From: Nanoarchaeota archaeon | GTDB taxonomy: Archaea; EX4484-52; LFW-46 | Reading direction: 5' to 3' | DNA: 10,455 bases | Assembly (NCBI GenBank): GCA_018897155.1 | Contig: JAHILE010000005.1 | Span: 1 to 10,455 of the forward strand | In this document: piece after piece, positions 1 through 10,399 of the stretch | How positions within the stretch are numbered: position 1 is the stretch's first letter | How the letters are laid out: each line of letters opens with the position of its first letter | Program-made: the position numbers and the translations under genes | Notes under the pieces: model-generated | Told to the model about the DNA's origin: nothing | Seen by the model: only the letters and a program-made list of their open reading frames with translations | The model's database searches: none

Positions 1-141
1 GAACTGCTTGGAAAGCATGATATTCGCAACAAACAGAAACAAGCTTCCTGCAAAAGCCGCAAGAAAGAGCATTCCGCTGTCCTTTATCAGTGCGGATTCT
101 TCCATTATCGAAGTAATATAGCCGTTGATTTTCGCTTTCAT
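1..141 (-). CDS. Flippase-like membrane protein, N-terminus (runs off the left edge)
   Basis: Forty-seven codons of an open frame begin at ATG 141-139 and continue beyond base 1. The peptide opens with a short polar segment (MKAKINGYITSIMEES), then 'ALIKDSG' and a strongly hydrophobic first membrane segment (about residues 24-42, containing LFLAAFAGSLFLF). This resembles the start of oligosaccharide/polysaccharide flippases (Polysacc_synt, MATE-like fold), which move lipid-linked glycans across the cell membrane. The family call is strengthened by the related copy at 1585-1893, which continues into GPEGFGNLQ, a flippase-like signature. The start codon overlaps the stop of the upstream ATPase gene as ATGA, so the two are probably cotranscribed and translationally coupled. 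Only the first helix is visible, so substrate and full length are unknown. Confidence 0.6.
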   Translation of the reverse strand, partial: MKAKINGYITSIMEESALIKDSGMLFLAAFAGSLFLFVANIMLSKQF

Positions 142-1520
142 TTGATCATCTGCTTTCTTATTGCTTTCTCAATGTCGTGAAGGTCAAAACACAAAACAGG
201 CATTTCATTATGGCTTTTGGGTTTGGATGAGAAGCTTTTTGCAAAGATTGCGAAATGCATCGACTTGTTTTCCGTATCTATATATGACGCTTTCTGCCAT
301 AACCCATCAAGGATTTCCTTTGCATCAACATCTTCCTGCCATTTGCATTCTCCCAAAAGCATTTGTTTGCCGTTCAACGCAACGATATCTATCTCATATT
401 GGTTTTTCCCGTCATCAGCGCCGTGTATCCTTCCCCACTGCCTGCCCAATTTTATAAAGCCGAAATCAGCAAGAATAATCTTATTTCTTATAATGTAGAT
501 TATGAATTTTTCGAATTTTTTTCCTACAAATTTCGGAAAGTTTTCTTTAAAAAATGCGGTTACTTCATCGAATCGTTCCTGCTCCATATAAGCCCGTTGC
601 TTATCCACAAAATAGAACCAGAATGAGAGGAAATTATCATTTATGGCATATGTGCCTTCCCTGGATTTTCTCGGGTCTGAAAGTATCGGCGTTTCCCGCT
701 TAATTAAATTGAACTCTTTTCTTAAAAGATCCAGATATTTTATGGTTTCGCCTTTCTTATTTGAAAAAAGCGTGGAGATTTCATTCAATCTTGTCTTGCC
801 TTCTGCAATTGCTGTAATGATTGTATTGTATGTTTTTGATTCCCCGCCAAATTCGACAGATAAAACCGCCCTGCCTTCATCCATGAGCATAGAATCTTTT
901 TCTTCGATCATCCGGGTTATCATTTTCTCTACAGGAATATTTTCGTCCAAAAGGGTATAATAATAAGGCACACCGCCAAAAATTGACCATGTTTTTATGA
1001 ACTCCTCCATGCTCATTTTGAACAGCAATTTCTCTGCAGGCAGCTCCTGGAGAATCATTTCGTTCGTCCGCCTCCCATAAAGAGGGGCTGCTTCGAGATT
1101 GAATATTTTTTTTATCAGAGAATAACTTGAACCGCTTACAATGATTCGGGTATTTTCTTTTTTCATCATTCTATCATCGACTAACTTTTGCATTTCTCCA
1201 AAAACTGACTTATCAACATTCAAAAAATTTTGAAATTCGTCAATAATTATTATTTTGTTTTTATCAAGCAGATACTTTACGATATCGATAAAGTTCTGAA
1301 ATTGGGGGAGTCCGTACTCAATGCAAATCTGATTGACGATCCATGAGTGCGACTTATTCGGCCAGATAAATATATAAATTGCGTCCGGAAACGCTTTCCT
1401 CAATAATGTTGTTTTTCCTATTCTCCTTCTGCCTCGGACAATCATAAAAAAATTCTTATCTCTTGTTCTTTCCAGCACTTCCATTTCTTTTTCTCTATCA
1501 ATAAACGGTATGTTTTTCAT
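138..1520 (-). CDS. Archaeal ATPase of the PF01637/DUF234 type (ATPase 1)
   Basis: A 460-aa STAND/MNS-type P-loop ATPase fused to a DUF234 domain. Walker A is GRRRIGKT (30-37), Walker B IIIIDEF (about 90-96), a sensor-like SGSS follows at 129-132 and YGRR at 148-151. A winged-helix-like region covers about 233-275, followed by the family's 'YAINDNFLSFWF' stretch (291-302). The C-terminus carries a PD-(D/E)xK-like nuclease signature, EID (D378) then ECK (E391, K393), so the nuclease residues look intact. Such proteins are abundant and lineage-expanded in archaea, and their cellular job is not settled. The ATG at 1520 is chosen because a TATA box lies 23-30 bases upstream, which makes the mRNA leaderless. 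The stop overlaps the flippase-like start by ATGA. Three palindromes surround the promoter. Confidence 0.9.
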   Translation of the reverse strand: MKNIPFIDREKEMEVLERTRDKNFFMIVRGRRRIGKTTLLRKAFPDAIYIFIWPNKSHSWIVNQICIEYGLPQFQNFIDIVKYLLDKNKIIIIDEFQNFLNVDKSVFGEMQKLVDDRMMKKENTRIIVSGSSYSLIKKIFNLEAAPLYGRRTNEMILQELPAEKLLFKMSMEEFIKTWSIFGGVPYYYTLLDENIPVEKMITRMIEEKDSMLMDEGRAVLSVEFGGESKTYNTIITAIAEGKTRLNEISTLFSNKKGETIKYLDLLRKEFNLIKRETPILSDPRKSREGTYAINDNFLSFWFYFVDKQRAYMEQERFDEVTAFFKENFPKFVGKKFEKFIIYIIRNKIILADFGFIKLGRQWGRIHGADDGKNQYEIDIVALNGKQMLLGECKWQEDVDAKEILDGLWQKASYIDTENKSMHFAIFAKSFSSKPKSHNEMPVLCFDLHDIEKAIRKQMIK

Positions 1521-1584
1521 ACATTATGTATGTTAAACATACTATTTAAATCTTTCTATATTAGTATGTATTATATACATACTA
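1518..1584 (-). promoter_or_regulatory. Promoter of ATPase 1 with three palindromic operator-like sites
   Basis: The TATA box is TTTAAATA on the minus strand (plus-strand 1543-1550), centred 26 bases from the ATG. Three palindromes built from the half-site GTATGT/ACATAC surround it. Site 1 is 1518-1532 (7-base arms, CATACAT/ATGTATG, including the start codon). Site 2 is 1528-1542 (7-base arms, GTATGTT/AACATAC, touching the TATA box). Site 3 is 1562-1584 (10-base arms, TAGTATGTAT/ATACATACTA). Sites 1 and 2 are centred 10 bases apart, one helical turn. Binding here would block TATA recognition and the start site, so repression, perhaps autorepression by the ATPase's winged helix, is the natural inference. 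Confidence 0.7.
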
Positions 1585-1893
1585 TTAAAACAATCCATTA
1601 ATGCTGATGTTTCCCTTCGTGATATATTTCGTAAGCGTGGCACCTGCGCCGAATTCAATCAGCGCGGAAAGGAACAAGAACAAAGATAAAACGGCCTTGA
1701 AATCCGTTTACTTCGCTTCGCTCGTTCTCGGCTTTACAACCTTCGGTTGTAAATTGCCGAATCCTTCGGGTCCGTTTGCTATGAAGAGGAAGATGCTCCC
1801 TGCAAATGATGCGAGGAAGAGCATTCCGCCATCCTTTATCAGTGCGGACTCTTCCATTATTGAACTGATATAGCCGTTGATTTTTTTTCGCAT
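1585..1893 (-). pseudogene. Broken 5' part of a flippase-like gene
   Basis: The minus-strand frame starting at ATG 1893 reads MRKKINGYISSIMEES and is clearly homologous to the start of the gene at 1-141, with the same first membrane segment. It then reads IAN-GPEGFGNLQ. The copy at 1-141 has about seven more residues (IMLSKQF) before its visible end, so an in-frame loss is likely here. After GNLQ come about 13 foreign codons ending in TAA (1708-1710) and containing a perfect hairpin. The same frame then resumes with a membrane-like stretch (LSLFLFLSALIEFGAGATLTKYI, about 1700-1620) and stops at TAA 1585-1587, directly against the third palindrome of ATPase 1. With an internal stop, a deletion and no 3' part, it is a remnant. 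Identity to the 1-141 copy is roughly 80% at base level by eye, so it is a paralogue rather than a fresh duplication. Confidence 0.7.
1733..1753. repeat. Perfect hairpin inside the flippase remnant
   Basis: TTTACAACC (1733-1741), loop TTC, GGTTGTAAA (1745-1753): a 9-base perfect stem. It is part of an approximately 39-base stretch (about 1708-1750) that interrupts the flippase frame, includes the run CTTCGCTTCGCTCG and supplies the in-frame stop. It looks like a small palindromic insertion. No second copy was found in the window. Confidence 0.55.
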
Positions 1894-1939
1894 GAAATCA
1901 TCTATTGCATAATAACCGTCTCTTTTTATCCCCTTTGAA

Positions 1940-2092
1940 TCATGGATTTGTGGGATGTTTTTTTGCCGCATCGTGCGGTAAAATATATTTCAGCCCGCGT
2001 TTTCCTTTACCGGTTCTTATAAGCACGCCTCTTTTAACAAGGCTGCTTAAATCCCTTTCCACGGCATATATTATCTTATAGAAGTTGGGCTG
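1940..2092 (-). pseudogene. Fragment of a winged-helix DNA-binding protein
   Basis: A 50-codon open stretch with no convincing start ends at TGA 1940-1942. It reads '...VERDLSSLVKRGVLIRTGKGKRGLKYIL...', the recognition-helix-plus-wing pattern typical of the C-terminal winged helix in several archaeal regulator and Fic-type proteins (RDL..LV.KG.L...G.G....Y.L). An in-frame TAA precedes residue 1, so the N-terminal part is missing. A TATA-like run lies just upstream (about 2095-2106), but no start codon fits it. It overlaps the frame that leads into the flippase remnant downstream. The parent family cannot be named from this piece. Confidence 0.4.
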
Positions 2093-2133
2093 TTATTTTT
2101 ATATATGCAAAATCGGGCCAAGAAGAAAGACAC

Positions 2134-2268
2134 TCACTGCCCAAAAGCGCATCGGTTCTGCGCAAGGATTATGAGTGCGAGTTCTTTTATATTTCCTTTT
2201 GCAGTTATGTATGTTCTGTATATTTGGGCGTATCCGGACACAAACCCTAGCATAACCCGCGCTTTAAA
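2134..2268 (-). pseudogene. Distal half of an ORF split by the IS66 element (tail A)
   Basis: Forty-four codons on the minus strand read FKARVMLGFVSGYAQIYRTY and continue through KELALIILAQ to a TGA at 2134-2136. The upstream half lies on the other side of the IS66 element (3720-3776, ending GKLPYILQAF). Removing the element and a shared AAA/AAAT joins the two as ...LQAF-KARVMLGF... in frame. The hydrophobic, basic composition resembles the membrane-associated C-terminus of archaeal family-2 glycosyltransferases, but that is a guess from style. The last 15 or so codons contain GCGCTTTTGGGC (GCCCAAAAGCGC on the plus strand), shared with tails B, C and D. The end appears frameshifted relative to tail B. 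Confidence 0.5.
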
Positions 2269-3718
2269 TATTGGTATCTGATTAGCTGACTTTCACCACC
2301 ACCCAAGACAAAGTATATACTTCAGTATCGAAAAACAGAAATACTAGAATATCCATAATTATTTTGGGAGATAAACTTTGTGCGATAAATATTCTCAAAA
2401 AGAAGTAGAATTGCTTGAAAAAAGAATTGCTGACCTTGAAAAACGTTGTAAGGATCTTGAAAAAATCGTAACTGCTTGCACAAATTCGTTTATTCCGTCA
2501 TCAAAAAGAATCATAAAAGAAACTGTTTCTGACGAACCTAAAGAGCCGAAAAAGAAAGGTGCGCCTATCGGACACCCAGGTACAACAAGAGAAACAAGCG
2601 AACCGGATAGTGAAAAAATAATTAATCCAACTTCTTGCCCAATTTGTAATGGGGTAAAACTCAGAATTTTAAAACCGAGAAAAAAGACTGTGGAAGATAT
2701 AGAAATGATAAAACATACAACAGCTTACACTTATTTTGACTGTCAATGTGAAGAATGCAAAGCACGTTTTACAACAACTCATTCTGAAATGCCGATTGAA
2801 GGCAAATTCGGACCGAATATTTCTGCTTTATGGACTTTATTGCATTACAAAGGCACTATTCCGTTTGACAGGCTTTGTTCAATAAGTGCAAGCGGGTTTA
2901 AAATGCCTGTCAGTGTCGGTGGAATTCAAAACGTAATCTATAGAAATGCCAAAACATTCAAACCTGAATTTAATAAAATCTGGAAAAACGTATCCGAATC
3001 AAAATATGCAAAAAGCGACGAAACCGGCTATTCTTTCAACGGAGAACGTTATTGGGTGTGGAATATTTCTGCCGGAAATGATACTCTTGTTTTGATGCGA
3101 AAAAGCAGAGGATCAAAAGTCTTAAAAGAAGTTTTTGGAGAATTTTTTGACGGCGTTTTATTGAGCGATTGCTTCAGTGCATACGGCAAATTCAATGCAA
3201 AAGAGTATGCAAAATGTTGGGCGCATATTTTGGTAGCTGGACGGGATCTTGCAAAATACAGTTCCGAAGGAAAAGAATTATATGAGATTCTTTGCAGGAT
3301 GTATGAATATATCAAAAATACAAAAAAGAATAATTTGGAAAATACGTATGCTGTGAAACAATGGATAAACAGGGCGATACGAAAATTTATTTTACTTTCC
3401 AAAACAGAATACGGTTCAAAAGCCGTTTTGAATCTGGCTTTGCGACTCGAAAAATACAAAGAGCAGTGGTTTACGTGCCTCAAATATCCCGAAGTTGAGC
3501 CGACAAACAACGGCTCGGAACGGGATATTAGAAAAATAGTTCTTTCAAGAAAAGTTTCTGGTTTGCACCGGAGCATTCTTGGAATCCGTTCAAGGGAAAT
3601 TATGATGTCTGTTTTGCTTACCGAACAAAAGAACGGTCAAAATCCGTATGCGTATGTGCAGAACGGACTCAAGAACTACAATTCAGGTACTAATGGGAGC
3701 TAAATAGATACAAATATT
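2267..3718 (+). mobile_element. IS66-family insertion sequence
   Basis: An element of about 1.45 kb holds one transposase gene between imperfect 21-base inverted repeats, 2267-2287 and 3698-3718 (18 of 21 positions match; core GTATCT..TTAGCT). The transposase stop codon lies within the right repeat. It has a single gene, without the tnpA/tnpB helpers of classical IS66, as in the ISBst12-like subgroup. It splits a minus-strand ORF (2134-2268 and 3720-3776). AAAT occurs at both junctions (2266-2269 and 3720-3723). The 8-base target duplication usual for the family is not visible, so exact ends are uncertain by a few bases. Confidence 0.75.
2378..3703 (+). CDS. IS66-family transposase (TnpC-like)
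   Basis: A 441-aa DDE transposase. It has an N-terminal coiled coil (about 8-32, heptads of L/E/K), a basic linker with KKKGAPIGHPG (58-68), a zinc-binding region with CPIC (87-90) and CQCEEC (122-127), then the IS66 catalytic core: SDETGY (D214), LLSDCFSAYG (D264), CWAHI (280-284) and NNGSERDIR (E381). The length is near that of single-gene IS66 transposases (classical TnpC is about 500 aa). The start is TTG at 2378, seven bases after a GGGAG ribosome-binding site (2366-2370); no in-frame ATG competes nearby. All catalytic residues are present, so the enzyme could be active. It is oriented against the minus-strand gene it interrupts. Confidence 0.93.
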   Translation: MCDKYSQKEVELLEKRIADLEKRCKDLEKIVTACTNSFIPSSKRIIKETVSDEPKEPKKKGAPIGHPGTTRETSEPDSEKIINPTSCPICNGVKLRILKPRKKTVEDIEMIKHTTAYTYFDCQCEECKARFTTTHSEMPIEGKFGPNISALWTLLHYKGTIPFDRLCSISASGFKMPVSVGGIQNVIYRNAKTFKPEFNKIWKNVSESKYAKSDETGYSFNGERYWVWNISAGNDTLVLMRKSRGSKVLKEVFGEFFDGVLLSDCFSAYGKFNAKEYAKCWAHILVAGRDLAKYSSEGKELYEILCRMYEYIKNTKKNNLENTYAVKQWINRAIRKFILLSKTEYGSKAVLNLALRLEKYKEQWFTCLKYPEVEPTNNGSERDIRKIVLSRKVSGLHRSILGIRSREIMMSVLLTEQKNGQNPYAYVQNGLKNYNSGTNGS

Positions 3719-3719
3719 G

Positions 3720-3776
3720 AAATGCCTGCAAGATATAAGGCAATTTCCCGAAAAACCTCCAAAGGTGCAAAATCAT
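3720..3776 (-). pseudogene. Proximal half of the ORF split by IS66
   Basis: Nineteen codons from ATG 3776-3774 read MILHLWRFFGKLPYILQAF and then meet the IS66 end. The ATG overlaps the TGA of ATPase 2 as ATGA. The stretch joins in frame to 2134-2268 on the far side of the element, giving a reconstructed product of about 62 residues. It reads as the interior of a longer membrane-associated protein rather than a natural N-terminus, which suggests that ATPase 2 itself lies inside an older gene. The GKLPY motif is reminiscent of archaeal glycosyltransferases; confidence in that is low. Confidence 0.45.
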
Positions 3777-5206
3777 TCACTTCTCTTTAAATCATCCAAA
3801 TCCCACGCAAGAAAGCCGCCTTTTCTAAGCGTTTCCTTGCCCTCTATCGTTTTCGCAAATATTGCAAAATATTCCTTTCTTTTGCCGCCATTCCATTCGA
3901 CACGCTTGCTTTTTTCTTTCAAAACAGCAATCAGTTTTTCAGCATCCTTGCAGCTCAAGTCCTGCCACTTGCACTCGGCAAAGATAATTCCGTTGCCTTT
4001 CTCGTCAAGCGCAACAATATCGATTTCAACCGGCTTTCTCTCGCCAACGATTCGGTAATATCCGTACCAAGTCCCTATTTTTGTGAGATATATCGGCAGG
4101 AGATTCTTTGCATTTTGTTTCTTTAAAAAATCCCTGCAAATGCCTTCAAATGCAAAGGAAACGTGCTTTTCGAAATAGGTGCCAAGAATCTCTTTGAATT
4201 TTTTGTAATTGCCCTCTTCGATATAGCTTCTGTTCGGATAAATGAATTTAAACCAAAAATCCATAAAATTATCTTTTATTTTGTAAATCGTCTTTTTGGA
4301 TCTTTTAGGCTCTGTTACCGGCGCAATTTTCTCAACATACTCAAGGCGCTCCAAAGTCGATATATATCTCGGAAGGGCTGTTGAAAGCATGCCGACACGG
4401 TTTGCTATTTCCGTCTGCTTTGTATTCCCTGCTGACATTGCGTCAAGCATAGAAAAATATGTTGAAGGATCCCGCAATTCCTCTTTGAGCAGAAGTTCGC
4501 CTTCCTCATATAGCATTTTGCCTTTTTTTGCGATTCTCTCAAGGATATTTTCGGATGCCGTTTTGCTTAAATCAAGTTCTGCAAGATAAAAAGGCACCCC
4601 GCCGGTTATTGCATATATCCTGACCGCCTCTTCAACAGACGCTCCCTTCGGAAAAAATTTAAGGGATTTTTCAAAATCCATGGGCCTGACTTTCCACTGC
4701 CCGGTTCTTCTGCCGTAAAGAGGGCTTTTATGGGCAAGCACCTCGCTTTCCATCATGTTTATGCTTGAGCCGCAAAGAACAAGCATTATTTTTGTGTTTG
4801 AAAGGCACTCATCCCAATATTTCTGAAAAATCGAGGTTATGTTAGGATTAGTATTTATGAGGTATGGGAATTCGTCTATGACAAGAAGAAATTTCTCCTT
4901 TTGCGCTTTTTCATTCAAATATATGAAAAGCGCACGCCACTCGGAAAAAGGCGACAATGTAAGGGCTGTGTCGCCAAGGCTCTCGCCAATCATCCTTGAA
5001 AGAAGCCTTATCTGCTCTGCTTCATTTCCCTTTGTGCAAAGGTAATATGTATGTTTTTTATTGTGCATAAAATGCTGGAGCAAATAAGTTTTACCCACAC
5101 GCCTTCTGCCGTATAGGACGATTAATTGGCTTTTGCTCTCTGCATACGACGATTCCAAAAAAGATGTTTCTTCTTCCCGGTCTATTATACTAACATTATG
5201 CACCAT
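3773..5206 (-). CDS. Archaeal ATPase of the PF01637/DUF234 type (ATPase 2)
   Basis: A 477-aa paralogue of ATPase 1 and ATPase 3. Walker A is GRRRVGKT (33-40), Walker B LLVIDEF (107-113), CGSS 145-148 and LYGRRT 163-168. A winged-helix-like segment spans about 251-292, followed by YKIKDNFMDFWFKF (308-321). The PD-(D/E)xK-like site is EID (D396) and ECK (E411, K413), intact. The frame stays open up to 5272, but ATG 5206 is preferred: the TATA box at 5229-5236 is centred 26-27 bases before it (leaderless), and 'IIDRE' near residue 7 then aligns with the start of its paralogues. The stop overlaps the ATG of the fragment at 3720-3776 (ATGA). A 35-base palindrome covers the start and promoter. Confidence 0.9.
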   Translation of the reverse strand: MVHNVSIIDREEETSFLESSYAESKSQLIVLYGRRRVGKTYLLQHFMHNKKHTYYLCTKGNEAEQIRLLSRMIGESLGDTALTLSPFSEWRALFIYLNEKAQKEKFLLVIDEFPYLINTNPNITSIFQKYWDECLSNTKIMLVLCGSSINMMESEVLAHKSPLYGRRTGQWKVRPMDFEKSLKFFPKGASVEEAVRIYAITGGVPFYLAELDLSKTASENILERIAKKGKMLYEEGELLLKEELRDPSTYFSMLDAMSAGNTKQTEIANRVGMLSTALPRYISTLERLEYVEKIAPVTEPKRSKKTIYKIKDNFMDFWFKFIYPNRSYIEEGNYKKFKEILGTYFEKHVSFAFEGICRDFLKKQNAKNLLPIYLTKIGTWYGYYRIVGERKPVEIDIVALDEKGNGIIFAECKWQDLSCKDAEKLIAVLKEKSKRVEWNGGKRKEYFAIFAKTIEGKETLRKGGFLAWDLDDLKRSE

Positions 5207-5236
5207 AACATTATGTTGTAGTGCATAATATATAAA
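5195..5236 (-). promoter_or_regulatory. Promoter and 35-base palindrome of ATPase 2
   Basis: The TATA box is TTTATATA on the minus strand (plus 5229-5236). An interrupted palindrome runs 5195-5229, centred on 5212, with 17-base arms pairing at 15 of 17 positions: outer arms ATTATGCAC/GTGCATAAT and inner AACAT/ATGTT. It spans the presumed transcription and translation start (5206) and reaches the TATA box, a position suited to repression. The ten-base word TAACATTATG also occurs twice here (5191-5200 and 5206-5215). Confidence 0.7.
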
Positions 5237-5275
5237 GATTTGTTGTAAACGACCTCTTTCTGTTATCTGCACTAA

Positions 5276-5368
5276 TTAAGCACTCACAACCGCCAAACTA
5301 ACGCCCAAAAGCGCAATCTTCTGCGCCAAGGTCCATGCGGTGAGCGCTTGCTGCAACTGCCCGAAACA
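5276..5368 (-). pseudogene. Decayed C-terminal tail B
   Basis: This frame begins immediately after the TAA of ATPase 3, in the same frame. It encodes 30 residues including ALTAWTLAQKIALLGVSLAV, ending ...VVSA-TAA at 5276-5278. It has no start codon of its own; the ATG overlapping the ATPase 3 stop (TAATG) reads another frame. The hydrophobic, alanine-rich end matches tails A, C and D at base level around GCCCAAAAGCGC, and B appears to be the least damaged copy. It is probably the 3' end of a lost gene; which one is not known. Confidence 0.5.
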
Positions 5369-6799
5369 TTAAAGCACTTTATTCAGATCATTTATATCAA
5401 AAAGCAGAACGTTCGGCTCTTTTATATTTTCTTTAAAGCTCTTTGCGAATACCGCATAGTGCTCTTTTCTTTTTTCATTATTCCACTGCACATATTGAGC
5501 CTTTTCCTTTAAATCCGCTAAAATCTTCTTCGCATCAACTTTGTCCTGCCATTTGCACTCTGCAAATAAGATTTCTTTTGTGTTATCATTCAAGGCAACT
5601 AGGTCCATCTCATAAACATTCTTCCCTTTTTCGCCTTTGAATTTGCCCCACTGCCGGCCTATTTTTTCAAAAAAGCAAGGCAGCTTTTTCGAGGCATTCT
5701 GTTTTAGCACGAATTCCTTGCATACTTGCTCGAAACTCTGCCCGATAAAGGAGGAAATATCTGAATGTATCGTCTCCCTTATTACTTCGTAGTTCTTTAT
5801 TTCATATGCGCTCATATTCCTATAGACGTATCTAAACCAAAACCTGAAAAAATTGTCTTTCAGAAAATATCTTCCCTTTTTGCTTCTTTCTGGATTTTTT
5901 TCAGTTACTGGCGCTTCTTTTGCCACAATGCCAAGCACCTTGGAAAGATTTTCAATATACGGCGTAAAAGAAGTTTCTTTTATTCCTGCATAATCGCATA
6001 TCTCTTTGGCAGTATTTTTTCCCATCGAAATAGCAGTTATGATTGAATAGTATGATGGAACATCCCTTCCGAATTCTTCTATTAAAATATCTGAAACTTC
6101 GTCTTTTAGCGGCGCCATTTCCCGGAGTAATAGATGTTCTATTGATGTGGCGGTATTATTTATCTTGTAATCGCCCATCAACATATAATACATAGGAATT
6201 CCGCCGTATATGGCGTATAGTTTGATCTGCTCTTCAATGTCGGTTATGCCGAAATCTTTCAAAATACATCCGACTGTTTCAAAATCAAAGGGAGTTATGG
6301 TTAAAATATTGTGTGCTCTCTTAAACAAAGGCGCCTTTTGTTCGATGAATATCTTTCTTATCATTCCGACAGACGAGCCGGAAATTAAGAGAAATAATTT
6401 GCCTTTATGCGCATCCCAAACTTTTTGAATTTCGAAAATAACTGATGGCTCAATGGATAAAAACCGCTGGAATTCGTCTATGGCTACGATGATTCTTTTT
6501 TCCTTTGACGCATCGAAAAGAACGTTAAAAAAAGACGCCCAAGTGTCAATTTTGACATATTCCGGAAGAGATAGCTCGGAAGATAATATTGATGAAAACT
6601 CAGAAAGAAGCTCTGAACTCGTTTTTTTTGGATTTACAAAAAAATACATCCCTTTTGTTTTAGAGAAAAACTGATGAATCAGTTCTGTTTTTCCGACACG
6701 CCGCCTTCCGGTTAACACCATCAGTATTTTGTGAGTCTCAGATATTTTTTTGGCGGCTTCAAGCTCGTTCAGCTCATTTTCCCTGTCGTAGAACTTCAT
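5369..6799 (-). CDS. Archaeal ATPase of the PF01637/DUF234 type (ATPase 3)
   Basis: A 476-aa paralogue of ATPases 1 and 2. Walker A is GRRRVGKT (31-38), Walker B VAIDEF (105-110), SGSS-like ISGSS 139-143, winged-helix-like segment about 250-292, YFLKDNFFRFWFRY 311-324, and a PD-(D/E)xK-like site EMD (D399) and ECK (E414, K416). Where the paralogues have LYGRRT this protein has LFKRAH (158-163), so the conserved arginine pair is altered. Unlike its paralogues it seems to have a short leader of about 20 bases: the TATA box is 45-52 bases upstream of ATG 6799, with GGTG about 6 bases before the ATG as a weak ribosome-binding site. The stop overlaps an ATG (TAATG), followed by tail B. Confidence 0.9.
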   Translation of the reverse strand: MKFYDRENELNELEAAKKISETHKILMVLTGRRRVGKTELIHQFFSKTKGMYFFVNPKKTSSELLSEFSSILSSELSLPEYVKIDTWASFFNVLFDASKEKRIIVAIDEFQRFLSIEPSVIFEIQKVWDAHKGKLFLLISGSSVGMIRKIFIEQKAPLFKRAHNILTITPFDFETVGCILKDFGITDIEEQIKLYAIYGGIPMYYMLMGDYKINNTATSIEHLLLREMAPLKDEVSDILIEEFGRDVPSYYSIITAISMGKNTAKEICDYAGIKETSFTPYIENLSKVLGIVAKEAPVTEKNPERSKKGRYFLKDNFFRFWFRYVYRNMSAYEIKNYEVIRETIHSDISSFIGQSFEQVCKEFVLKQNASKKLPCFFEKIGRQWGKFKGEKGKNVYEMDLVALNDNTKEILFAECKWQDKVDAKKILADLKEKAQYVQWNNEKRKEHYAVFAKSFKENIKEPNVLLFDINDLNKVL

Positions 6800-6809
6800 A
6801 ACAACACCA

Positions 6810-6851
6810 ATTATTATTCATATAATTATTATATTCATAATAATATATAAA
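6810..6851 (-). promoter_or_regulatory. Promoter and 35-base palindrome of ATPase 3
   Basis: The TATA box is TTTATATA (plus 6844-6851). A palindrome at 6810-6844, centred on 6827, has 17-base arms pairing at 15 of 17 positions (outer ATTATTAT/ATAATAAT; inner ATATAAT/ATTATAT). Length, centre and mismatch count equal those of the ATPase 2 palindrome although the bases differ. It touches the TATA box and covers the predicted start of transcription. The low complexity (almost all A/T) makes chance pairing easier than for ATPase 2. Confidence 0.55.
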
Positions 6852-6858
6852 GCTTTCG

Positions 6859-6966
6859 TTAAACAACCGCCACCCTCACAGCCCAAACGCGCATCCTTCT
6901 TCTCAGTAATATTATATCCGGCAGAGATATAAGCATATTCCGGCGTTCAAAAGCTCTTTCGTTTCT
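6859..6966 (-). pseudogene. Decayed C-terminal tail C
   Basis: A minus-strand open stretch ending at TAA 6859-6861, reading ...MLISLPDIILL... then a basic, probably frameshifted end. Bases 6862-6930 match tail D (8305-8375) at roughly 80% by eye, with a one-base length difference that changes the frame. No start codon or promoter of its own is evident. It lies directly upstream of the ATPase 3 promoter and is part of the divergent region between ATPases 3 and 4. Confidence 0.45.
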
Positions 6967-6967
6967 G

Positions 6968-7034
6968 CATTTTGTAAAAGTATTTGACAAAATGTATAGC
7001 ATTTTGTAAACTATTTAGCCGAAATGCTTATATA
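6968..7034 (+). promoter_or_regulatory. Promoter and repeated half-sites of ATPase 4
   Basis: The TATA box TTATATA lies at 7028-7034, centred about 25 bases before ATG 7056, implying a leaderless mRNA. Upstream are three copies of the half-site CATTTTGT in alternating orientation: 6968-6975 (+), 6987-6994 (inverted) and 7000-7007 (+). The last two form a palindrome with 8-base arms and a 5-base spacer, centred about 60 bases before the start. Unlike the other ATPase genes, the sites sit upstream of the TATA box, so activation is as possible as repression. Confidence 0.6.
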
Positions 7035-7055
7035 GTTCTTCCGCCAATATTTATT

Positions 7056-8273
7056 ATGGTTTCATCAGTCCAGATAGAGAAGATAATCGAGTTGCACAAC
7101 CTTGCAAAGGAAAGCGCGGCAAAGTTTGACAAAAAGAGGTTCGTCTACGAGGACGTAAAAAAAATGCTTGAAAACAAGCTTTTCATAGGAATTGCCGGGC
7201 TTCGGGGTGTAGGAAAAACAGTGCTTCTAAGACAGTTAGCAATAGAGCTTAAAGATTCTGTTTATACGAGCGCGGATGCGATTGATCCTGCTGTAAATCT
7301 TTTTGAGCTTGCAAAGGAGCTAAACAGAAATTATAAGACAAAATACCTGTTGATAGATGAAATCCATAATCATGCAAACTGGCAGATGGAAATCAAGAAA
7401 ATATATGATTTTTTGGACATAAAGATTATATTTACGTCATCTGCTTCAATCGATATAATCCGAAGCAAATACGACCTCTCAAGAAGGGTTGCAATCATAA
7501 ACATGCCTCCGTTCTCTTTCCGGGAATCTCTTTTTTTCAGGAAAAGTGTGCTTATTGAAAAAATGAGCCTGGAGGATATTTTAAAAAACTACAAAGAGCT
7601 TTACCGAAAAATCTATGCGTTTGAGCCGGAATTCCATGAGTTTTGCGTCCGGGGCGCCCTTCCGTCGGCCATTGAATCGCCTTTCCCGCAAACCATACGC
7701 AATATAGTCGAGAAAATACTGAACCACGACCTTTTGATATATGGGAAATTAAACAGAGAGGACATAATAAATATAGGTAATATACTAAGATTCATAAGCC
7801 GGTCGCCCGTTGATGTGTGCAGCTATTCCCTAATAGCCCGCAATGCCGGAATAACAAAGTACAAGACTCAGGAATACATACACATATTAGAGCAGGCGTT
7901 TCTCCTGAAAATATTGATGCCATATGGATCAAATGTAATGAAAGAACCAAAAATTCTATATAGCCTTCCTTTCAGGGCGTACTTTTCAGATGGTGTAGAG
8001 GACGAAAAAATCGCCGGAGCCATCAGGGAGGAATTTTTTATTCACCACATAAGCAATATCGATGCAAATGTAAATTATCTGAAGAGTCTGCGTGGTGAGA
8101 AATTGCCGGATTATATCGTTTTTTACAAAAACAAGAAATTTGTGTTTGAAATAGGCGGGGCGGGGAAGACAAGAGTGCAGTTAAAAGGAATTTCAAATAA
8201 CCGATTTGTTCTTTCACAACCCGGTAATGTAGATAAAGGAATACCATTAATATTTTTTGGATTTCTGTGGTAA
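7056..8273 (+). CDS. ATPase of the AAA_14/DUF4143 type (ATPase 4)
   Basis: A 405-aa P-loop ATPase from a different family than the three on the minus strand. Walker A is GLRGVGKT (48-55), Walker B YLLIDEIHN (97-105), sensor-like FTSSAS (126-131), then SRR (142-144) and MPPFSFRESLFF (150-161), the 'l.plsFrEfl' signature of AAA_14 proteins. A helical and winged-helix-like region (about 235-285) precedes the C-terminal DUF4143-like, PD-(D/E)xK-related domain: PDYIVF (351-356) and FEIGGAGKTR (364-373). Glycine sits where the catalytic lysine of E-x-K would be, so nuclease activity is doubtful. ATG 7056 is chosen from the TATA spacing; the frame is open to 6984. It is divergent from ATPase 3 and convergent with the peptidase operon. 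Confidence 0.88.
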   Translation: MVSSVQIEKIIELHNLAKESAAKFDKKRFVYEDVKKMLENKLFIGIAGLRGVGKTVLLRQLAIELKDSVYTSADAIDPAVNLFELAKELNRNYKTKYLLIDEIHNHANWQMEIKKIYDFLDIKIIFTSSASIDIIRSKYDLSRRVAIINMPPFSFRESLFFRKSVLIEKMSLEDILKNYKELYRKIYAFEPEFHEFCVRGALPSAIESPFPQTIRNIVEKILNHDLLIYGKLNREDIINIGNILRFISRSPVDVCSYSLIARNAGITKYKTQEYIHILEQAFLLKILMPYGSNVMKEPKILYSLPFRAYFSDGVEDEKIAGAIREEFFIHHISNIDANVNYLKSLRGEKLPDYIVFYKNKKFVFEIGGAGKTRVQLKGISNNRFVLSQPGNVDKGIPLIFFGFLW

Positions 8274-8296: not shown

Positions 8297-8384
8297 CTAA
8301 CTCACAGCCGCCGCCCTCACAGCCCAAAAGCGCAGCCGCCTTCGCAGTAATTATTGCATCTGACAGAGATATAAAGCAGAACTG
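8297..8384 (-). pseudogene. Decayed C-terminal tail D
   Basis: A minus-strand stretch just after the stop of the peptidase gene (one frame over) reads FCFISLSDAIITAKAAALLG and then, after a one-base shift, ...VRAAAVS-TAG at 8297-8299. It is homologous to tail C at base level and ends like tail B (GTGAGT...GCTTA). An extra TTA near the end gives an early stop. No start codon is visible. It fills most of the 112-base gap between ATPase 4 and the peptidase gene. Confidence 0.45.
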
Positions 8385-8385
8385 C

Positions 8386-9036
8386 CTAGTCTATGCACAC
8401 GTTCTTGTCGCCTTCAATCTTCTGGCAGAACCTATCCCATATAAGCCACGAAACTATTGCCTCGCTTCCGGGAAGCGCTGCACTGCTTCCGAAATGTTCA
8501 ATCCATTTCCGGAAAAATGCCTGCGATTTTTCGTATGCTTCTCCTGATGTTCTTCCGTTTAATAGCGACAAAACTATCTGGTTTGAAGAATCTAGAAACG
8601 GCAAAGCAAGCTCATCATCAAGTTCTCTACCTGCCGAACAGTTCTTATCGGATGCAAATATGAAAACATCATTATATCCGATAAAGCATTTCGCACAGGC
8701 ACTAACAGCCTTTGGCCCGAGAACTTTTGCAGAACTGCACGAAACAGAATAAACCGCCTTTGATTTCAGCAAATGCTCGTTCTCTCCGCTTTTTATCAGC
8801 GCTTCATTCTTATGCCCGAAAATTGTATCATCGCTTCCATGGCCGTTAAATACTGCAAGAGGAGAATTCTGCTTCATAAGGTATTTCTCAACATCGCCTC
8901 TTGATGCCTTTTGGCCTTTAAAATCAGAATATGATATTCTGCGTTTTTTCGCAGCATTAATCAGATGCTCGCTCCATTTCGAAAGATACGCTGTGGTAGT
9001 GTCATGATTAGGCCGCGTTATCAGCATTTTGCTCAT
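8386..9036 (-). CDS. Small caspase-like (CHAT/C25-type) cysteine peptidase
   Basis: A 216-aa protein with the hallmark dyad of caspase-fold peptidases: a hydrophobic strand ending in histidine, AVFNGHGS (H66), and a second strand ending in cysteine, YSVSCSSAKVLG (C100), followed by AKCFIGYND (115-123) and a C-terminal helical part with GEAY (165-168). CHAT and C25 peptidases cleave protein partners and often act as effectors activated by an associated sensor. No sensor repeats, signal peptide or membrane segment are present, so the protein is minimal and probably cytoplasmic. ATG 9036 has AGAGGG five bases upstream; ATG 9027 (MLITRPNHD) is an alternative. It overlaps the upstream small gene by 29 bases, which suggests tight coupling. 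Substrate unknown. Confidence 0.75.
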   Translation of the reverse strand: MSKMLITRPNHDTTTAYLSKWSEHLINAAKKRRISYSDFKGQKASRGDVEKYLMKQNSPLAVFNGHGSDDTIFGHKNEALIKSGENEHLLKSKAVYSVSCSSAKVLGPKAVSACAKCFIGYNDVFIFASDKNCSAGRELDDELALPFLDSSNQIVLSLLNGRTSGEAYEKSQAFFRKWIEHFGSSAALPGSEAIVSWLIWDRFCQKIEGDKNVCID

Positions 9037-9444: not shown

Positions 9445-9468
9445 ATGTTATCTCAGGGGAGATAACAT
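9445..9468 (+). promoter_or_regulatory. Hairpin over the IS5 transposase ribosome-binding site and start
   Basis: ATGTTATCTC (9445-9454), loop AGGG, GAGATAACAT (9459-9468): a perfect 10-base stem. It holds the GGGGAG ribosome-binding site (9456-9461) and the first two bases of the ATG (9467). A transcript entering from outside the element would fold it and hide the start, a known way of limiting transposase expression in other IS elements. It could also be a protein-binding site. Confidence 0.7.
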
Positions 9469-10399
9469 GATAACCTATGAAAAACTGTATAAAAAAACGA
9501 ATTCTTTCAGGTCATTTACAGGCATTACTGCGCCTGAATTCGATAAGCTGTTTGCATTTGTCGAAAAGGAATATCCGAAAGCAGAGGCTGAAAGGCTTGG
9601 CAGGCGAAAAAGGATAAATGCTATTGGCCAAGGCAGGAAATTCAGCCTTGAGCTTATAGACCGGCTGCTTATGCTCCTGATGTATTATCGCCTATACTGC
9701 TCCTTCACATTCATGGGATTTCTTTTCAACCTTGACCAAAGCAGTGTCTGGAGAGATATAAAATACATCGAGCCATTGGTTGAAAGGTGCATTCCCTTGC
9801 CAAAGAAGCTATACGAAAAAGCAAAAAAGATAACTACAATGGAAGATTTCCAGAAATATTATCCCGAGCTGAAAGCATTTCTTGACGCAACAGAGCAGCA
9901 AATCCCAAGGCCGAAGAACAAGCGAAGGAGAAAAAGCCATTATTCGGGCAAGAAAAAGAAGCATACTGCGAAGACGCAGCTCATGGTAAACCAGAACGGA
10001 TTGATACTGCACAAAACAGGTTATGAACGGGGAAGAAAACACGATTATGATATTTTCAAAAAGAAGCATCCAAAGATCCCAAAAAATGTTGAGCTCACAA
10101 CGGATTTGGGATATCTCGGCATTGAAAAGGACTTTCCAAAAATAAAGTCAAGAATTCCGAGAAAGAAGCCCAAAGGAAAACCAAGAGCAAAGGAAGATAA
10201 AAAATTCAACAAAAAGCTAAGCCGTGAGCGTATCGTAGTTGAACATGTGATAGGAAAGACAAAGAAGTTCGGGATTATGGGCGGCATATTCCGGAATAGA
10301 TTGAGCAGGTACGATGATGCGAGTTCTATTGTTTATGGATTGGTGAATTTCAGGGCAATGATGAACCAAGGGTTTGACTTGAACGAGTTTGTCGGTTAA
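9467..10399 (+). CDS. IS5-family DDE transposase
   Basis: A 310-aa transposase with an N-terminal helix-turn-helix-like region (SLELIDRLLMLLMYYRLYCSFTFMGFLFNLDQSSVWRDI region, about 64-104) and a DDE_Tnp_4-type catalytic core: LDATEQQIPRP (D139 region), TTDLGYLGIEKD (about 214-225) and RIVVEHVIGKTKKFGI (E near 259). The linker between is very basic (NKRRRKSHYSGKKKKH). Length is normal for IS5-group enzymes and all three acidic residues are present. ATG 9467 follows a GGGGAG site within a hairpin. It reads toward the right end of the element and ends 53 bases before it. Confidence 0.92.
   Translation: MITYEKLYKKTNSFRSFTGITAPEFDKLFAFVEKEYPKAEAERLGRRKRINAIGQGRKFSLELIDRLLMLLMYYRLYCSFTFMGFLFNLDQSSVWRDIKYIEPLVERCIPLPKKLYEKAKKITTMEDFQKYYPELKAFLDATEQQIPRPKNKRRRKSHYSGKKKKHTAKTQLMVNQNGLILHKTGYERGRKHDYDIFKKKHPKIPKNVELTTDLGYLGIEKDFPKIKSRIPRKKPKGKPRAKEDKKFNKKLSRERIVVEHVIGKTKKFGIMGGIFRNRLSRYDDASSIVYGLVNFRAMMNQGFDLNEFVG

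Follow-up and report, generated by a model that had tools for sequence, protein, structure and literature searches.

Among the closest described systems to the one treated here are the C proteins of restriction-modification systems, which bind palindromes in their own promoter, commonly as a tandem pair of conserved spacing, several site types being found among the C-protein families (PMC4824078). The window analysed in this work is a stretch of 10,455 bp, which makes up contig JAHILE010000005.1 (C5) inside the 1.43-Mb genome of a Nanoarchaeota archaeon, and in which a sequence-only reading had pointed to four AAA ATPase genes (win1 to win4), each with its own palindromic site at its promoter. 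Like the C-boxes, these sites are tandem palindromes at the promoter of the gene itself, they have a conserved spacing and they come in several types. However, C proteins are small dedicated helix-turn-helix controllers encoded next to nuclease and methylase genes, whereas here the winged helix is part of the ATPase-nuclease itself, which has no partner gene. The layout of the locus is not that of a C-box system either, because the ATPase genes of the window are single and their neighbours are transposases and unrelated open reading frames (ORFs).

Archaeal Orc1/Cdc6 proteins resemble the window proteins in having an AAA domain with a winged helix and a matching fold, and each recognises the site beside its own gene (PMC3936714). 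Their sites are replication origins, whereas the dyads described here lie on promoter elements and belong to proteins with a PD-(D/E)xK-like end. Pfam does not place the window proteins in the Orc1/Cdc6 family, but assigns them ATPase_2 or AAA_14 with DUF234 or DUF4143, and the match of a Cdc6 chain to the profile is no better than E 0.004. The C-box serves as an analogy in working, and Cdc6 with its adjacent origin as an analogy in recognition. A further likeness exists with STAND-type regulators such as IniR and MalT, in which an ATPase with a DNA-binding part acts on promoters; the ATPase part of IniR is predicted to resemble SSO1545 (PMC5760070). SSO1545 is also a top fold match of win2. 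In contrast to the window genes, which have the site at the gene itself and a nuclease-like C-terminal part, IniR and MalT contain sensor domains and regulate other operons. Finally, the phage-defence candidates PDC-S27 and PDC-S01 are the same protein families as the window genes. They are described as candidate single-gene defence systems of unknown action, very abundant and combining an ATPase with PD-(D/E)xK in one protein; experimental validation is still to come for most PDCs, and the passages found there mention neither promoter sites nor self-regulation (PMC12988326).

Four ATPase genes with a dyad at each promoter

The source genome contains 8 DUF234 genes and 8 DUF4143 matches. According to Pfam, three of the window ATPase genes are of the ATPase_2 plus DUF234 type, with both domains above the Pfam cut-offs, and one is of the AAA_14 plus DUF4143 type (AAA_14 81.8 bits, cut-off 27; DUF4143 32.0 bits, cut-off 28.1). 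The PADLOC models name the former PDC-S27 and the latter PDC-S01. The genes are:

138 to 1520, minus strand: win1, ATPase gene, PDC-S27; AAA (ATPase_2), winged helix and DUF234 PD-(D/E)xK-like end (Pfam PF03008 7e-18, PF01637 1.5e-13; PADLOC PDC-S27 2e-42)
3773 to 5206, minus strand: win2, ATPase gene, PDC-S27 (PF01637 2e-30, PF03008 1e-26; model described below)
5369 to 6799, minus strand: win3, ATPase gene, PDC-S27 (PF03008 2e-26, PF01637 3e-19)
7056 to 8273, plus strand: win4, ATPase gene, PDC-S01; AAA_14, winged helix and DUF4143 nuclease-like end (PF13173 6e-23, PF13635 1e-7; PADLOC PDC-S01 2e-24)

Each of the four promoters has its own dyad, as the sequence-only reading had claimed, with z-scores from 4.1 to 5.3. 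The dyads (which have no strand) and the TATA-like boxes (read from sequence) are:

1508 to 1542: win1 operator, 35-bp dyad GTATGTTTAACATAC-ATAAT-GTATGAAAAACATAC (minus strand reading), over the start codon, from -22 to +13 of the ATG (z 5.3)
1543 to 1550, minus strand: win1 TATA-like box TTTAAATA
1559 to 1587: second, upstream dyad of win1, AGTATGTATtatATACATACT (inverted repeat, 13-nt arms, 92%)
5195 to 5229: win2 operator ATTATGCAC...GTGCATAAT, 35-bp dyad lying between the TATA box and the start codon and running into the first codons (17-nt arms, 88% complementary, 1-nt centre; z 5.1)
5228 to 5237, minus strand: win2 TATA-like box CTTTATATAT
6810 to 6844: win3 operator, AT-rich 35-bp dyad (17-nt arms, 88% complementary, 1-nt centre; z 5.1)
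6843 to 6852, minus strand: win3 TATA-like box CTTTATATAT
6967 to 7026: win4 operator, palindromic unit CATTTTGTaaaagtatttgACAAAATG, repeated as a 75% copy at a distance of 32 bp, both ahead of the TATA box (direct repeat of 28 nt; z 4.1)
7028 to 7035, plus strand: win4 TATA-like box TTATATAG

None of 100 dinucleotide shuffles produced a dyad as good as those of win1-3 (z 5.1-5.3), none of 200 one as good as that of win4, and z was above 4 in none of 58 control promoters with free upstream DNA from the source genome. The win1 operator is composed of the dyads GTATGTTAAACATAC (1528-1542) and GTATGTTTTTCATAC (1508-1522), which together form the single 35-bp dyad, and the relative L116 carries the same operator. 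Sites of the ATTATT type, as at win3, are found in the clade relatives L083, L091 and L096. In the win4 operator the unit CATTTTGT...ACAAAATG occupies positions 6968-6994 and its 75% copy positions 6999-7026. Elsewhere in the source genome (C28), a perfect palindrome, CCATTTTGTTGACGTCAACAAAATGG, with the half-site of win4 lies at L021, upstream of a DUF4143 gene.

Dyads across the two families

The survey of 159 DUF234-type genes spans archaea and many bacterial phyla. Its sources were relatives, which supplied 91 archaeal genes, and a scan of genomes from both domains, which supplied 80 named loci; the ATPase loci of two same-order relatives are identical to deposited ones (L042 = L156, under Candidatus Nanohalarchaeota archaeon CSMAG_321, and L035 = L141, under archaeon GLR71). 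Promoters were scored with a 35-bp dyad model that gives a bonus for a central ATNAT, and 298 archaeal genes and 86 bacterial neighbour genes served as controls. At p<=0.01 a promoter dyad was found in 88 of the 159 genes versus 7 of the archaeal and 4 of the bacterial controls, and at p<=0.05 in 117 versus 29 and 7, respectively. Dyads with z>4 occur in 25/89 archaeal DUF234 promoters, compared with 4/194 controls with free upstream DNA (Fisher p 1.6e-10), and in 44% of 73 named loci. In Selenomonas felix (L179) the palindrome is perfect over 41 bp, and further examples come from Anaerolineae (L184), Treponema (L171) and Aciduliprofundum (L172). The concern that relatives of these ATPases might lack any palindrome, raised together with the sequence-only reading, is allayed by the survey, most archaeal and bacterial relatives having one.

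The spacing of the units depends on the family. The arm consensus of the DUF234 type, from the centre outward, is roughly ATA[A/C]T[C/T]NN[A/G]A[G/T]TA and, because each arm is itself a small palindrome, the DUF234 operator consists of two tandem units. Among DUF234 genes, 64/159 have their best direct repeat at a spacing of 15-16 bp (10/298 controls), and among DUF4143 genes 38/65 have it at 32-34 bp (20/298 controls, p 1e-19). The sites overlap the core promoter of their own gene above the chance rate. Archaeal DUF234 dyads are mostly centred 18-24 bp past the TATA box, with -7 of the start codon as the commonest position, bacterial ones have an exact TATAAT (-10 box) at their centre in 20/39 cases, and most DUF4143 dyads are found ahead of the TATA box. 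The AAA-ATPase_like family (PF09820), whose members usually have a PD-(D/E)xK end, behaves differently in the same bacterial genomes, with a median z of -0.3 and no 32-34 bp repeats. Because these PF09820 genes lack dyads, the sites are not a general trait of AAA genes with a PD-(D/E)xK end, and that reading was discarded.

Archaeal DUF234 operators often run into the first codons of the gene and may for this reason shape the N-terminal residues ahead of the F-I-D-R motif. At archaeal loci such as L118, L076 and L068 both the start codon and the first codons fall within the right arm.

Privacy of the sites and co-divergence with the protein

How private the sites are was assessed by whole-genome pattern searches with the win1, win2 and win4 sites. 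The win1 site occurs at 4 places within 1 mismatch, 3 of which are at the win1 promoter. Both other sites match exactly only at their own promoter: for win2 the next three places have 3 mismatches, and for win4 a second copy and three unrelated places have 2. The claim that each gene has a site of its own stands for these three, which are unique or nearly so, but not for the paralogues C33 and C21, to which we return below.

Across 394 archaeal genomes, a search with the 33-bp site of the C33 clade, allowing <=3 mismatches, found it in 24, and a reversed control pattern in none. The ATPase gene of the clade starts directly after the site at 14 loci and at C21 in the source genome (15 in all). 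At three further loci the site lies beside ATPase remnants, which are apparent remnants of the ATPase start in L226 and L229 and a fragment of the C-terminal end in L219, and at L227 it is found without an ATPase.

The model of win2 (predicted local distance difference test, pLDDT, 95) shows an AAA domain, a winged helix (helices 247-258, 264-271 and 278-287 plus the wing) and a C-terminal domain, and that of win4 (pLDDT 85) an AAA domain, a winged helix at residues 234-290 and a C-terminal domain. Since win1 and win3 align with win2, all four proteins probably have a winged helix; the sequence-only reading had recognised it in three, and the model extends it to win4. The nearest solved structures to win2 are 2qen, 2fna (SSO1545), Orc1/Cdc6 and plant NLRs, with TnsC lower, and the fold search with the win4 model gave general AAA+ matches only. 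The Walker A/B and PD-(D/E)xK residues are present in all of win1-3 (G33, K39, D111, E112, E394, D396, E411 and K413 in win2 numbering) and are kept in DUF234 genes with or without a detected operator, from which it follows that DUF234-type proteins are probably active enzymes. In win4 the sequence LPDYIVF...FEIGG stands where D...ExK would be expected.

Operator and protein have diverged together, as had been proposed. Operator-arm identity grows with protein identity, from 0.30 for proteins that are 20-30% identical to 0.70 for those that are 50-60% identical, none of 999 permutations exceeded the observed association between operator and protein similarity in a Mantel test, and the clade site described above is mostly found at the clade gene; these comparisons use sites chosen as palindromic, and shared ancestry contributes to them. 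Set against this, the sites are unlike among paralogues of a single genome, yet alike within a clade across distant archaea. Between gene pairs, operator similarity correlates with the identity of the AAA domain (rho 0.49) and of the winged helix (0.37), and hardly with that of the C-terminal nuclease end (0.10; partial -0.07). In the DUF4143 family few pairs inform the co-divergence, since the sequence of the unit is retained only between proteins that are more than about 50% identical.

Proposed autogenous control

From these observations we consider it likely that the dyads are autogenous operators bound by the winged helix of each ATPase, probably repressing, and co-diverged gene by gene. 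Each dyad would be the operator of the gene it precedes, and the encoded AAA ATPase would bind it through its winged helix, probably aided by the AAA domain and by multimerisation, with one dimer per palindromic unit. In the DUF234 type the two units would be read 15-16 bp apart, over the -10 box in bacteria and from the TATA box to the transcription start and the first codons in archaea, and in the DUF4143 type they would lie 32-34 bp apart, ahead of the TATA box. Binding would most likely repress the gene, so that a candidate antiviral ATPase-nuclease is kept at a low level. Because many such paralogues share one genome, operator and protein would have co-diverged until each answers mainly to itself, and it is reasonable to think that this divergence keeps paralogues from cross-repressing. 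A wider version, which we put forward tentatively and which is rather less likely to hold than to fail, is that in both families, and in bacteria as well as archaea, the ATPase-nuclease reads a private tandem operator and uses DNA binding as off-switch and sensor, so that release, for example triggered by infection, would induce the gene and free the nuclease; with a grammar set by family and letters set by clade, this would amount to dozens of orthogonal self-switches.

Several results weigh against autogenous control. For about a quarter of the DUF234 genes (42/159) no dyad reaches p<=0.05, the spacing rule holds in 40-60% of genes, and bacterial DUF4143 genes are weak, with the 32-34 bp spacing in 8/25. 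C33 and C21, paralogues in the source genome, have one site type in common. Operator similarity tracks the winged helix slightly less closely than the AAA domain, and the covariation of winged-helix residues with the palindrome that the sequence-only reading had led one to look for is suggestive only: helix 2-3 contributes 8 of the 40 top pairs in a mutual information analysis of residues versus operator, with 2.6 expected, but the signal is noisy. In addition, six Thermococcus genomes (L230, L233 and L236-L239; near elp3 and nif3) have a C33-type site before a gene that, from its sequence, we take to be nif3, with no adjacent ATPase. In the Thermococcus genomes G038, G244 and G227 the ATPase gene lies between the C33-type site and nif3, and the simplest reading of the solo sites is that the ATPase was lost and the operator retained.

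Alternative explanations

The Thermococcus solo sites would also suit a different regulator, devoted to host defence or stress, that binds the sites and controls the ATPase genes, and promoter operators are indeed usually bound by dedicated regulators. Such a regulator is nevertheless unlikely. The sites differ among the paralogues of one genome and agree across distant genomes within an ATPase clade, so that whatever reads them must travel with the gene; the ATPase is moreover the sole gene common to most places with a C33-type site, and the geometry follows the ATPase family. Slightly less probable still is that the dyads are sites of action (loading, cleavage or insertion) of an ORC/TnsC-like machine, comparable to archaeal cdc6 genes beside their own origins. 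The AAA domain is similar to those of Orc1/Cdc6 and TnsC, each Cdc6 of Haloarcula hispanica recognises its adjacent origin (PMC3936714), win1 and win4 each lie between direct repeats of flanking DNA, and the nuclease residues are conserved. However, the dyads are centred on the -10 box or near the transcription start and not beside the gene at large, and the genome-wide pattern searches revealed no matching dyad at the far ends of win1, win2 and win4. The low correlation of operator similarity with the nuclease end also argues against such a machine and, together with the position of the sites on promoter elements, led us to reject the alternative offered by the sequence-only reading, in which the palindromes are recognition sites of the nuclease domain.

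Chance, the AT-rich composition of promoters or RNA hairpins could produce similar patterns, as short palindromes are common in AT-rich promoters and the win3 site is almost pure AT, but we regard this as very improbable. The dyads stand out against dinucleotide shuffles and several hundred control genes, and the spacing is fixed while the sequence varies. An RNA hairpin was rejected since the majority of sites fall on the transcription start or upstream of it; in most cases it is excluded by a site that is on a -10 box or for the most part ahead of the transcript.

Autogenous control by the ATPases themselves is thus the reading we retain. Autogenous tandem operators are an already known kind of regulation, and no account of promoter palindromes in these families was found in the open-access literature, although an earlier description elsewhere is possible. 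Nor was it found reported there that two very large candidate-defence families have such operators, with a spacing set by the family and letters set by the clade; DUF234 shows them in archaea and bacteria alike, DUF4143 chiefly in archaea. The self-operator offers a handle on both families, as the bound DNA would be predictable from sequence alone and binding, repression and induction are directly testable. Genomes with many paralogues could represent natural sets of orthogonal protein-operator pairs in which to study how winged-helix specificity diverges. The operator is also a simple mark for finding these genes and, because in archaea it often runs into the first codons, for calling their starts correctly.

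Other features of the window

The direct repeats of flanking DNA lie at 23-151 and 1775-1903 around win1 (129 nt, 78%) and at 6863-6910 and 8304-8351 around win4 (48 nt, 85%). They look like 3' ends of protein genes and may be a trace of the insertion of the ATPase genes. The remaining genes are:

8386 to 9036, minus strand: ORF of 216 aa with NGHG and SCSSA motifs reminiscent of caspase/CHAT-type (clan CD) peptidases, with two small ORFs upstream; no match in Pfam, NCBIfam or PDB
9467 to 10399, plus strand: IS5-like DDE transposase (Pfam DDE_Tnp_4; below the IS5 cut-off), on the same contig
2378 to 3703, plus strand: IS66-family transposase, above the NCBIfam cut-off, on the same contig as the ATPase genes

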